Positions 107 to 30,000 of a DNA stretch of 30,148 nt are shown piece after piece. Origin of the DNA: a virus; the IMG/VR virus record IMGVR_UViG_3300008448_000420, positions 1-30,148 of that record, one strand, 5' to 3'. The position numbers were made by a program, and so were the translations under genes. Below the pieces are notes generated by a model, which ran no database searches, was not told where the DNA came from, and saw nothing but the letters and a program-made list of their open reading frames with translations. Within the stretch, counting starts at the first letter, position 1, and the number at the start of each line of letters is the position of its first letter.

Positions 107-114
107 TATAAATA
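107..114 (+). promoter_or_regulatory. T4-type late promoter TATAAATA
   Basis: This is an exact match to the T4 late promoter box, recognised by the gp55 late sigma (encoded at 3883) together with the gp45 clamp. It sits directly after a terminator and in front of small virion-type genes. With the usual late spacing (box at about -13 to -6) the predicted start is at about 120, which is also the A of the next ATG. Confidence 0.85.
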
Positions 115-707: not shown

Positions 708-964
708 TGAAATCTTTTTCTCAGTTCCTTAAAGAAGGTTCTCCTATGCCTGGAGTTCATCCAGAAGTATGGAAAGCCCATGAGAAACACATTGCAGCAG
801 CTAAGAAACATAATGAGGGTGGTCTTGGTATCCATAAGGCAGCTGCTACCAGAACGTTCCGAACTCTTAAAAAGAAACTAAAAAAATATGAGCCTGATGA
901 ATCCAAGCATTTGAAACTCATGACAGACATGATGAATCAAAGCGACAAGAACGGGGATCTATAA
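707..964 (+). CDS. Small basic protein with the same prohead-type leader
   Basis: This 85-aa protein begins MKSFSQFLKEG, the same leader type as the preceding gene, with a predicted cleavage after LKE (Glu10). The mature part is helical, Lys-rich and charged (a KKKLKK run near residues 55-60). The start overlaps the previous stop by one base (TAATG), and the stop in turn overlaps the next ATG by one base, so three late genes are translationally coupled. A DNA-associated internal head protein is the best guess from the leader and composition. I recognise no named homologue. Confidence 0.72.
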   Translation: MKSFSQFLKEGSPMPGVHPEVWKAHEKHIAAAKKHNEGGLGIHKAAATRTFRTLKKKLKKYEPDESKHLKLMTDMMNQSDKNGDL

Positions 965-1512
965 TGTCAGCAGTTGAAAACTTACCTTCTAACATCAATT
1001 TCCTTGGTCAGAACGGCTTTAGATTTGCTGTTAAAAGGCTTCCTAACGTCAACTATTTCTGTCAGGCAGCAACACTTCCAGCTGTATCTATGAATGCTAT
1101 TGAAAGCCCTACGCCCTTCGCGTTTGTTCCTCGTCCTGGCGATAGACTTACATACGATCCGTTGATAATTAGATTCAAAGTTGACGAGGATCTTAGAAAC
1201 TATTTCGAAATTCAAAAGTGGCTTGAAGGGCTAGGTCATCCAGACAGTCTAAATCAAACTCGTGAACTATCTAAGAATATCAATAACAATTTGATTGCTG
1301 GAACGCGTCAAATAGGATATTATACAACTTTCGTATCAGACGCGACACTTTCTATTCTTACTAGTGCTAAGAATCTAAATAAGAACATATTCTTCTATGA
1401 TCTGTTCCCGATCAGCCTAACAGAGCTCAACTTTGAGTCAACCAATACTACCATCGAATATCTTGAGGCAACAGCCACGTTCCGTTATCGTAAGTATGAA
1501 CTCGAAGAATAG
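964..1512 (+). CDS. gp19-like tail tube family protein
   Basis: This 182-aa protein has the pattern of the T4 gp19 tail tube family. A phage-tube beta fold begins near residue 13 with NFLGQNGFRF, followed by an ATLPAVS-type segment at about residue 37, a region reading PGDRLTYDPLIIRF, and a C-terminal YLEATATFRYRKYEL strand. T4 gp19 is 163 aa; cyanophages carry several paralogues of this family, so this could be the major tube protein or a related tail/baseplate component. It is the last gene of the late cluster. Its 3' end faces a strong convergent promoter at 1535-1563 on the minus strand, which would make RNA antisense to it. Confidence 0.7.
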   Translation: MSAVENLPSNINFLGQNGFRFAVKRLPNVNYFCQAATLPAVSMNAIESPTPFAFVPRPGDRLTYDPLIIRFKVDEDLRNYFEIQKWLEGLGHPDSLNQTRELSKNINNNLIAGTRQIGYYTTFVSDATLSILTSAKNLNKNIFFYDLFPISLTELNFESTNTTIEYLEATATFRYRKYELEE

Positions 1513-1534
1513 ATTACCCCTGTTTAACACATTC

Positions 1535-1563
1535 ATTATATCTGACAACTGTTCTATTGTCAA
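1535..1563 (-). promoter_or_regulatory. Minus-strand sigma70 promoter, antisense to late genes
   Basis: On the minus strand the sequence reads TTGACA (1563-1558), 17 bp, TATAAT (1540-1535), a perfect consensus promoter. It points leftward into 1512-120. There is no convincing minus-strand gene downstream, so the product would be RNA complementary to the late mRNA. The -35 box lies in one arm of the inverted repeat at 1556-1586. Confidence 0.65.
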
Positions 1564-1586
1564 GATCGTTGTTTGTTCTTGACAAT
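1556..1586. repeat. 10-bp inverted repeat linking two divergent -35 boxes
   Basis: ATTGTCAAGA (1556-1565) is a perfect reverse complement of TCTTGACAAT (1577-1586), separated by 11 bp. Each arm contains the -35 hexamer of one of two divergent promoters. The repeat therefore marks a symmetric divergent control region and could also be a protein-binding operator. Confidence 0.75.
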
Positions 1587-1607
1587 TGGCTCTTATGGTG
1601 ATACGAT
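1579..1607 (+). promoter_or_regulatory. sigma70-type promoter for uvsY
   Basis: TTGACA (1579-1584), 17 bp, TACGAT (1602-1607). The predicted transcription start, about 7 nt after the -10 box, falls at 1614, which is the A of the uvsY ATG. No Shine-Dalgarno sequence is present, so a leaderless transcript is likely. Confidence 0.8.
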
Positions 1608-1613
1608 TAGAAT

Positions 1614-2051
1614 ATGAAATTAGAAGATATCTACGCTATGTGGGAAACTGACTCCAAGTATGACGATCTCAACTTGGATAAGGAGTCTCTCAACATCTCA
1701 TCCCTTCACGCCAAGTATAATCGTCTGCTGAGCGAAACGCGCAGTCAGTTGCGTTCTGCTGTAATCAAGAAGAAGTCACACTACAGCACGCTGCGTGATT
1801 ACTATCTTGGCAATCTTAACAACCCAGAAGATTTAGAACGCATTGGGCGTCAGCCATTCCTGAACAAAGTTCTCAAGAACGAAGTGCAAGGATATATCGA
1901 CGCTGACGGTGAACTCGTTCGTATCGACGAACGCATCGCTCTGCTCGAAGAAAAGGTTGAAGTGATTGTAGAAATCATGAAGTGTATCCACAAGCGCGGA
2001 TACGATATCAAGTCCGCCATTGAGTGGAGAAAGTTTACGAATGGATTCTGA
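1614..2051 (+). CDS. uvsY: UvsY recombination mediator
   Basis: This 145-aa protein (T4 UvsY has 137) matches the family by its MKLEDIYAMW start (T4: MRLEDLQ), the central LRDYYLGNLNNPE segment and the C-terminal helix reading RGYDIKSAIEWRKF. UvsY is a small hexameric protein that loads UvsX recombinase on gp32-coated single-stranded DNA, so it partners with the UvsX encoded at 26140. The start ATG coincides with the predicted transcription start and lacks a ribosome binding site. The 3' end overlaps uvsW by 11 nt, as expected for coupled recombination genes. Confidence 0.9.
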   Translation: MKLEDIYAMWETDSKYDDLNLDKESLNISSLHAKYNRLLSETRSQLRSAVIKKKSHYSTLRDYYLGNLNNPEDLERIGRQPFLNKVLKNEVQGYIDADGELVRIDERIALLEEKVEVIVEIMKCIHKRGYDIKSAIEWRKFTNGF

Positions 2052-3546
2052 TCTAACGCTTACGAAAGTCAATGAGGCTATGCTTCGCGTTGAAGGCGAT
2101 ATGGGTATCGCGCGCGAGCTGTCTGAACATTTGACATTCGAAGTACCAGGTGCTAAGTTCTCACCCAAATATAAATCGCGCGTGTGGGATGGTAAGATCC
2201 GTTTGCTCAACTCACGCAACATGCAAGTCTATGCTGGTCTCGTGAATGAGATACAGAACTTCTGTGAAGAACGTGGATACAGCTTAGACATTGATCCAGA
2301 ACTTGTTATGACTGAGGAGTTTTCCCTTGCAGAAGCAAAAGAGTTCGCAGAAACACTCAATCTTCCTTTCGTTGCTCATGATCATCAGCTTCGTGCTTTC
2401 GCTCTCGCTGTTCGTAACAGTCGCGGTATTCTTATCAGTCCTACTGCTTCTGGCAAGTCAATGATTGCATATCTCATCACGAGGTTTTATCATGATAGCT
2501 TTAAAAGTCGCACTCTTATTCTTGTGCCAACTATTTCTCTCGTTCATCAGCTACGTTCTGATTTTTCTGATTATGGTCTTGAAGTTGATAGCTATGTTCA
2601 TTGCGTCTTTGGAGGACAGGATAAACTATCGAATAAAGCAGTTGTCATCTCAACATGGCAATCGGTTCACGAACTTCCTAAGTCGTATTTCGACGAATTT
2701 GATGTGATCATTGGTGACGAAGCGCATCTGTTCAAAGCGCAGTCGCTCACTAAGATTATGACTAACGCCACGAACGTGAAGTATCGTTTTGGTATGACGG
2801 GAACGCTGGACGGTAGTCAAGTCAACGAGCTCGTGTTGACAGGTCTGTTTGGTCAAACACATAAGATTATTGATACGAAGGAACTTATCGACAGTGGTAA
2901 GCTCGCATCAATCAAAGTCAAGTGTCTTGTTCTCAGTCATCCAATCGAAGATCGCAAGAAACTTAACGGCGGAACGTATCAAGATGAAGTTGAGCATATT
3001 ATTTCGTTTGATCCTCGTAATAAGTTCATTCGTAATCTTGCTCTATCTCTTAAAGGCAACACACTGATCCTATATGCTTACGTCGAAAAACACGGACAAG
3101 TTCTTTATGAAATGATTAGTGATAAATGCGAAAATCGCAGAGTATTTTTTGTGCATGGTGGAGTTGATGGTGAGCGGCGAGAAGATATTCGTGGTATCGT
3201 TGAAGAAGAAAACGATGCAATCATCGTGGCTTCTTATGGAACGTTTTCTACAGGTATCAATATCAAGAATCTTCATAACGTTATCTTTGCGAGCCCAACG
3301 AAAAGCCGCATCCGCACGCTGCAATCTATCGGACGCGGACTTCGCATTTCAGACACAAAAGATAGCATGACGCTATTTGACATTGCTGATGATCTGAGCT
3401 ATAATAAAAAGAAAAACTATACACTCAACCATCTCATTGAACGCGTGAAGATGTATAGTTCTGAGGGATTCCCTTACGAGCTACATAATATCAAGCTAAG
3501 GAGTGATAATGGAACAGGGCGAAGTTTATTTTCTGAAGATGAATAA
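2041..3546 (+). CDS. uvsW: UvsW RNA-DNA / branch-specific helicase
   Basis: This 501-aa superfamily 2 helicase is close to the length of T4 UvsW (503). It has an N-terminal DNA-binding region with the conserved FSPKYKSRVWDGKIRLL segment, Walker A PTASGKS at about residues 134-140, the DEAH box at 226-229, and C-terminal motifs including ASYGTFSTGI and QSIGRGLR. UvsW processes stalled forks and recombination branches and shuts down R-loop origins late in infection. I chose ATG 2041 (GGAGA upstream) over the in-frame TTG at 2020. The 3' part of the gene contains a perfect sigma70 promoter (3377-3405) that would feed the next genes. Confidence 0.93.
   Translation: MDSDLTLTKVNEAMLRVEGDMGIARELSEHLTFEVPGAKFSPKYKSRVWDGKIRLLNSRNMQVYAGLVNEIQNFCEERGYSLDIDPELVMTEEFSLAEAKEFAETLNLPFVAHDHQLRAFALAVRNSRGILISPTASGKSMIAYLITRFYHDSFKSRTLILVPTISLVHQLRSDFSDYGLEVDSYVHCVFGGQDKLSNKAVVISTWQSVHELPKSYFDEFDVIIGDEAHLFKAQSLTKIMTNATNVKYRFGMTGTLDGSQVNELVLTGLFGQTHKIIDTKELIDSGKLASIKVKCLVLSHPIEDRKKLNGGTYQDEVEHIISFDPRNKFIRNLALSLKGNTLILYAYVEKHGQVLYEMISDKCENRRVFFVHGGVDGERREDIRGIVEEENDAIIVASYGTFSTGINIKNLHNVIFASPTKSRIRTLQSIGRGLRISDTKDSMTLFDIADDLSYNKKKNYTLNHLIERVKMYSSEGFPYELHNIKLRSDNGTGRSLFSEDE
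3377..3405 (+). promoter_or_regulatory. Internal sigma70 promoter inside uvsW
   Basis: TTGACA (3377-3382), 17 bp, TATAAT (3400-3405): a full consensus match embedded in the uvsW reading frame. It would transcribe the small Sm-like gene, gp55 and the 47/46 genes independently of uvsY-uvsW. Confidence 0.65.
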
Positions 3547-21072: not shown

Positions 21073-21426
21073 ATGAATGTGAATCCTGCGAATATTGAAG
21101 AAGTTCAAAATGCCCAATTGAGTGTTATGATGCTTCGCTTGATTAACGGTGAAGAAGTTATCGGTAAGGTTGGTGTGATTGGAAACATGATCAAGGTTGT
21201 AAAGCCTGCTGCCGTCATGCTCCAGCCACCAACCTCTCCAGCTGGTAAAGCAAACATGGCGCTGCTCGATTATATTCCTATGGCCAAAACCAAAGAAATC
21301 ATTCTCGATCCACGCAACGTTTTGTTTACATACGAGCCAGACAATCAGATTGAGTCTGCTTACAATCAGAACTTCGGTTCTGGCTTAGTGCTACCCAAGA
21401 AAGGGATCTTGACAACTGCGTCATAA
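21073..21426 (+). CDS. Second Sm-like small conserved protein
   Basis: This 117-aa protein has the same strand pattern as the product at 3509: LRLINGEEVIGKV (residues 17-29), then VVKPAAVMLQP and PRNVLFTYEPDNQIESAYNQNFGSG. Homologues are common in T4-like cyanophages and marine myoviruses, without known function. An Sm-like, possibly RNA-binding fold is inferred from pattern only. TAAGGAA lies before the ATG. The gene ends within the promoter region of DNA polymerase: the -35 box at 21409 is inside its last codons. Confidence 0.65.
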   Translation: MNVNPANIEEVQNAQLSVMMLRLINGEEVIGKVGVIGNMIKVVKPAAVMLQPPTSPAGKANMALLDYIPMAKTKEIILDPRNVLFTYEPDNQIESAYNQNFGSGLVLPKKGILTTAS

Positions 21427-29698: not shown

Positions 29699-29928
29699 AA
29701 TTCGTTATGTATAGTAAGGATGGATGCCCGTGGTGTGATCGCGCTAAAGATCTAATTACAGCAAAAGGTGACGAATACGAAGAGTTCAAAATCGGCCGTG
29801 AGCTCACGCGCGAAGAGTTCACGGAACAATTCCCCAACGTTCGCACAGTTCCATACATCATTCTGAACAACGATGTAATCGGTGGATTTGAATCGCTTCA
29901 ATCCCACTACGACGCTCGTGTAGCTTAG
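29695..29928 (+). CDS. grx: Glutaredoxin
   Basis: This 77-aa thioredoxin-fold protein has the dithiol active site CPWC at residues 11-14, the cis-Pro segment RTVPYI, and GGFESL near the end. It is the usual length for phage glutaredoxins such as T4 NrdC-type proteins. It could reduce a ribonucleotide reductase, which is not in this window. GTG 29695 overlaps the preceding stop (GTGA). The last 15 nt, including the TAG stop, are the first 15 nt of a tRNA gene. Confidence 0.93.
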   Translation: MKFVMYSKDGCPWCDRAKDLITAKGDEYEEFKIGRELTREEFTEQFPNVRTVPYIILNNDVIGGFESLQSHYDARVA

Positions 29929-29989
29929 TGGCTAAAGCCGACCGCTCATAACGGTCTGATCGGGGGTTCGAGTCCCTCCGCGAGCACCA
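29914..29989 (+). tRNA. tRNA with CAU anticodon (elongator Met or Ile2)
   Basis: A complete 76-nt cloverleaf is visible: acceptor GCTCGTG / CGCGAGC, D-stem GCTT/AAGC with GG in the loop, anticodon stem GACCG/CGGTC with loop CTCATAA, T-stem GGGGG/CCCTC with TTCGAGT, discriminator A, and encoded CCA. The G1-C72 pair and the lack of three G-C pairs in the anticodon stem exclude initiator tRNA. CAU then reads Met, or Ile AUA if lysidinylated. It overlaps the glutaredoxin 3' end. Confidence 0.95.
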
Positions 29990-29992
29990 CTT

Positions 29993-30000
29993 TATAAATA
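29993..30000 (+). promoter_or_regulatory. T4-type late promoter TATAAATA
   Basis: This is an exact late box 3 bp after the tRNA CCA end. Its predicted start (about 30006) coincides within one base with the ATG of the lipoprotein gene at 30005, as at 107-120. Confidence 0.82.

Follow-up and report, generated by a model that had tools for sequence, protein, structure and literature searches.

Genes and Promoters at the uvsY Junction

The window, i.e., the whole stretch of 30,148 nucleotides of phage DNA analyzed here, carries a T4-type late promoter, TATAAATA (107..114, plus strand), upstream of the late genes at 120-1512. These comprise two small plus-strand genes (120-707 and 707-964) and a plus-strand gene for a tail-tube-family protein (964..1512, phrog_45), which by synteny occupies the gp3 position. 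They are followed by uvsY (1614..2051, plus strand, phrog_231), an early gene encoding the recombination mediator, and by a gene for a UvsW-like helicase (2041..3546, plus strand), assigned by synteny as the annotated neighbour of uvsY in cyanophages. Most cyanophages and pelagiphages examined have the same gene order, gp23-gp3-uvsY-uvsW. A second late promoter TATAAATA at 29993-30000, with a tRNA-Met at 29914-29989 just ahead of it, flanks the region on the other side, and the window appears to span a complete early block with a late block on either side. The two small late proteins start with MLSFSRFLTEA and MKSFSQFLKEG, like T4 capsid-targeting sequences, and may be internal head proteins cut by the prohead protease.

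Between the tail-tube-family gene and uvsY, two promoters lie back to back. The minus-strand promoter (promoter A) consists of a -35 box TTGACA (1563-1558) and a -10 box TATAAT (1540-1535) and thus reads TTGACA-17-TATAAT, a 12/12 consensus match (1563..1535), whereas the plus-strand uvsY promoter, with TTGACA at 1579-1584 and TACGAT at 1602-1607 (TTGACA-17-TACGAT), matches at 10/12. The first-pass annotation had described a perfect divergent promoter pair, which holds for the minus arm with its 17-bp spacing but not for the plus arm. Promoter A is the only minus-strand site among the four 12/12 sites in the window. On the plus strand, the phage uses the early consensus cTTGACAat-17-TAnnAT across the early region, and because promoter A shares this consensus with the other early promoters, it fits a phage early promoter of the host sigma70 type. 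It does not have the character of a MotA-dependent middle promoter as at T4 oriF and oriG, since the -35 boxes at this site are perfect and the promoter is of the early type. The predicted start lies at about 1528, within a TGT found in nearly every member of the element family. In the initial transcribed region (1513..1534, minus strand), the GGTCA motif of this family takes the form GGGGTAA.

The two extended -35 boxes form a 10-bp inverted repeat (1556-1565 / 1577-1586), which had been reported before and is exact. It arises because both promoters share the -35 consensus, and we therefore rejected it as an operator. No conservation of the repeat beyond the -35 boxes was seen in relatives. 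The uvsY ATG (1614) coincides with the expected +1 of the plus promoter and lies 6 nt beyond the plus -10 box in 43 of 44 relatives, so that a leaderless uvsY mRNA is likely. Of the 133 sense early promoters in the clade, 37 likewise have an ATG exactly at the predicted +1, a hint that early mRNAs may be leaderless or start-overlapping.

Downstream of promoter A there is no minus-strand gene, as 120-1512 holds plus-strand genes throughout, and relatives contain no conserved minus-strand ORF at this site. This agrees with the earlier statement that the minus promoter has no gene to serve. The tail-tube-family gene (964-1512) is the first gene that promoter A opposes, and the small late genes (120-964) are likewise opposed. 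Most relatives lack a minus-strand terminator within 1.5 kb of the site; in a subset, a weak candidate lies about 656 nt downstream. The antisense RNA is accordingly predicted to be long and untranslated. Two other products were considered and rejected: a short sRNA ending at a terminator, as no terminator is conserved, and a minus-strand coding sequence, as no ORF is conserved.

Conservation of the Antisense Promoter at uvsY

Protein searches with the tail-tube protein and UvsY identified 101 junction loci, including the window and overlapping loci of one contig, and these yielded 44 distinct intergenic sequences of 95-104 bp; genes in relatives were called simply as longest ORFs. Both promoters are kept between the tail-tube-like gene and uvsY in all 44 sequences. 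The minus-promoter spacer is exactly 17 bp in 44/44, the minus -10 box is TATAAT in 43/44 and the minus -35 box is TTGACA or TTGACG in 43/44, while the gap between the two -35 boxes measures 13-15 bp in every case. Mean pairwise identity in the minus promoter reaches 0.99 for the -10 box and 0.92 for the -35 box, with 0.41 for the spacer; the corresponding values of the plus promoter are 0.78, 0.98, and 0.46. The antisense -10 box is thus more constrained than the -10 box of the promoter that serves a gene (0.99 vs 0.78).

Spurious promoters are common in AT-rich phage DNA, and promoter A could be a chance or neutral by-product of such intergenic DNA. We regard this as extremely improbable. 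The window contains four 12/12 sites where 0.013 are expected (mean of 300 dinucleotide-model shuffles), and the conservation in all 44 relatives despite a diverged spacer already contradicts the chance explanation. Judged by its conservation pattern, promoter A is real and under selection.

Recurrence at Three Loci in the Clade

The near-complete relatives G001 (158 kb) and G003 (155 kb) each contain the antisense module at three loci. Site A, at uvsY, carries it in G001, G003, G002, and G008. Site B, upstream of large late proteins that look nucleotidyltransferase-like and gave no Pfam match, carries it in G001, G003, and G008, and site C, upstream of gp25-gp6, in G001, G003, and G002. Hence, G002 (139 kb) has sites A and C and G008 has sites A and B; further clade fragments have one or two antisense modules each. 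At site C, whose neighbours gp25 and PAAR were assigned by Pfam, the promoter lies just before gp25-gp6 and points towards the PAAR/gp5 side. By orientation, the predicted antisense transcripts run opposite tail-tube, capsid, and baseplate genes.

The antisense element is present at 15/15 clade loci of site B (at least 74% identity) and at 4/4 clade loci of site C (at least 89% identity), the copies of site C being few (4 loci by search plus G002 and G003). An equally good promoter site occurs in 43 of 4000 random 280-nt windows. Among the more distant homologues searched, none has a promoter of at least 11/12 at B or C. Judged by capsid protein, the nearest named phages are Pelagibacter phage Mosig (67%) and Stenotrophomonas phage DLP6 (65%); both are without the antisense module at the positions checked, and the gp3-uvsY junction of Mosig has no antisense promoter of at least 11/12. 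As far as these comparisons reach, the class of antisense promoters is limited to this clade. The clade consists of uncultured T4-like phages, and a search of genome contigs for a clue to the host found no relative. In Mosig, an intergenic antisense TTGACA-16-TATAAT adjoins a gp55-like late sigma gene (L337, ~21318-21360) and is possibly an independent case outside the clade.

Comparison of the relatives shows site A to be one copy of a clade-specific module, a predicted strong sigma70-type early promoter directed backwards into the 3' end of a late gene. The same comparison shows that the module occupies three fixed loci per genome, has its own conserved start sequence, and adjoins, back to back, the promoter of the following transcription unit. 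With 44/44 conservation at uvsY and recurrence at three late-gene ends, the claim of an early-type antisense promoter facing late genes is well borne out. The site B loci (L171, L256, and others) have a late leader between TATAAATA and the ATG that contains tandem hairpin-like repeats, GCAGAAGGCTACGGCAATCCTGC and GCGGTCAGGCTACGGCAATCCCGC, and these were found across the clade. An Rfam scan of loci including L171-L174 returned tRNAs only.

A Common Motif at the Predicted Antisense Start

The conserved sequence extends past the -10 box. TGT stands at the predicted +1 in 56 of 57 antisense copies from sites A, B, and C, as compared with just 13 of 133 sense early promoters that have TGT near +1. 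A GGTCA-like core at about +12, i.e., about 11 nt beyond the TGT, is common to all three sites. Strict matches to this motif in intergenic context mostly accompany an antisense promoter. We also observed an inverted repeat centred on the start (-6 to +10, ~1519-1534 in the window), which is weak in the window itself. Repeats of at least 5 bp occur in 19% of unique antisense copies vs 2% of sense promoters, with arms that vary between relatives (e.g., TGAGT-GTT-ACTCA and GGAT-GTT-ATCC). A start-centred hairpin was rejected as a universal feature, being enriched yet missing from many copies.

These data could mean that the functional core of the module is the downstream motif, which would act as an operator or as an RNA element: a factor from phage or host would bind it and control the antisense transcript or prevent its termination. 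The near-invariant TGT, the shared core, the association of the strict motif with promoters, and the enrichment of the repeat all fit such a role. However, many copies lack the inverted repeat, its arms differ between copies of one genome, and the loci scanned contain no Rfam family, so we consider this explanation quite improbable.

Position Relative to Early and Late Transcription Units

Each genome has about 12-15 late promoters, so that the antisense module marks three of them and not all. At site B, the late promoter TATAAATA/AATAAATA is 7-9 nt from the antisense -35 box (15/15), and at site C the distance between TATAAATA/AATAAATA and the -35 box is 13 nt (4/4). Given this spacing and the footprints of polymerases, the late and the antisense promoter at B and C could probably not be occupied together. 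One reading is an either/or switch in which early polymerase at the antisense promoter would occlude the neighbouring promoter, the late one at B and C and that of uvsY at A, with the RNA as a by-product. It is supported by the distances at sites B and C, and at site A by the 13-15 bp that always separate the two -35 boxes. On the other hand, late promoters are inactive early even without occlusion, and occlusion would have no need of the conserved sequence past the -10 box; we therefore hold this switch to be improbable.

Sites B and C lie just inside late blocks downstream of early blocks. In G001, nearly all genes are co-directional (132 kb vs 18 kb by strand), and because almost all genes are on one strand, read-through from early blocks is a real risk. 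Early antisense RNA or convergent polymerases could thus block or destroy sense read-through into late genes until the early promoters are shut by late modification. In favour of such repression, an early-type promoter is aimed at late genes at three conserved sites, there is no conserved minus ORF, and B and C stand where early read-through would arrive. As for a cis-antisense repressor, the predicted transcript is, by its orientation, complementary to the genes it would regulate. Yet the element is found at just three of the roughly 12-15 late units, and site A ends a late block whose upstream side is free of early promoters for tens of kb (G001). Furthermore, early silence of T4-type late genes is expected in any case, since their promoters need phage factors, and repression by itself leaves the conserved start sequence unexplained. 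Repression, put forward in the first-pass annotation, is the main rival to the origin reading given below, and we judge it to be rather unlikely. If true, it would be a rare conserved case in a lytic phage of dedicated antisense promoters in the early/late programme.

Antisense Promoters as Candidate Replication Origins

The antisense RNA is compatible with a function either at an origin or in repression. Because sites A and C lie where T4 has oriF(uvsY) and oriE, our leading reading, based on analogy and held with somewhat less than even confidence, is that promoters A, B, and C are transcript-primed replication origins. With two of three sites at the positions of T4 transcript-primed origins, one of which has an early antisense driver, a role in replication is at least as likely as one in repression. 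In the proposed mechanism, host RNA polymerase would produce early in infection, from each site, a long, untranslated, and unterminated RNA antisense to late genes. This RNA would stay on its template as an R-loop at easily melted spots and its 3' end would prime leading-strand DNA synthesis, as at T4 oriE. In addition, the divergent uvsY sense transcript at site A could serve as primer for the opposite fork, in the manner of T4 oriF. Once the late promoters fire, overlapping occupancy would silence the antisense promoters of B and C. Remaining R-loops would be cleared by UvsW, which in T4 unwinds R-loops at origins (PMC3016281). More tentatively still, a set of three dedicated antisense early promoters that share a start motif might form a multi-origin replication system in which the late promoters switch off B and C and couple the end of origin activity to late expression; on balance we think this unlikely.

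In each genome, the antisense elements rank with the least stable DNA: 10 of 13 are in the top 1.1%, as compared with a median in the top 10% for sense early promoters, although abutting promoters are in part expected to lower duplex stability. Past the antisense start we found no consistent AT-rich unwinding element: very low stability is seen in the antisense element itself, but not consistently beyond it. Four-fold GC skew gave no origin signal at B or C. A skew dip left of site A follows codon bias and recurs in cyanophage S-SM2 (gp21-gp23), where the gp3 and uvsY genes overlap and leave no space for such an intergenic promoter pair. GC skew was therefore rejected as evidence for an origin. 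R-loop formation at T4 oriF is said to need no specific sequence. By analogy, the start sequence conserved in the clade would argue against origins of this sequence-independent kind.

Comparison With Known Systems

According to the T4 record, oriE lies in gene 5 in '(-) strand direction; primer RNA is complement of gene 5 transcript', oriF lies at uvsY with the uvsY transcript as primer, and the oriG primer is opposite gene 34. In the oriE region, we found TTGATG-17-TATAAT on the primer-RNA strand. In this respect oriE is like the clade module, an early sigma70-type promoter that transcribes opposite late (in oriE, baseplate) genes, and it is near site C in gene order. The T4 synteny is approximate, as oriE sits inside gene 5 and not beside gene 6; site C, which adjoins PAAR/gp25/gp6, is close to but not identical with this position, and site A lies elsewhere. 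The T4 promoter is inside gene 5, whereas the promoter analyzed here is intergenic and perfect and recurs at three loci with a shared start motif. Moreover, oriE has repEA/repEB on the early strand, whereas site A has no conserved small ORF for RepEA/RepEB-type early proteins on the antisense transcript.

Site A resembles T4 oriF, a promoter-based origin (PMC3016281), in lying at the start of uvsY. They differ in that at oriF a single MotA-dependent middle promoter reads in the uvsY sense and is followed by an unwinding element, whereas the promoters at site A are early and divergent, with no clear unwinding element after them. For site B, no T4 origin counterpart was identified. Whether R-loops are used at T4 origins besides oriF and oriG is described as an open question in a review (PMC3016281), and for this question an antisense promoter defined by sequence and recurring at three syntenic loci offers exact coordinates. 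In T4-like phages outside the T4 group, a large part of the origins is, to our knowledge, unmapped.

In a literature search that mostly covered sources outside subscription journals, we found no report of three syntenic antisense early promoters that share a start motif, which is weak evidence that the set is new. RNAs opposite phage genes, as predicted here for the clade, are known from other phages: an antisense RNA opposite T4 gene 32 appears as a reference in PMC3014915, and antisense promoters have been described among the late promoters of AR9 (PMC5312081). Those of AR9 are described as late ones and without a conserved three-site module. Most cyanophage and pelagiphage junctions share the clade's gene order, but in most of them gp3 and uvsY overlap or lie close, with little space for an intergenic pair. 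The module resembles an early promoter, T4 oriE, and a cis-antisense RNA, but we found no described counterpart for the three-site set with its start motif.
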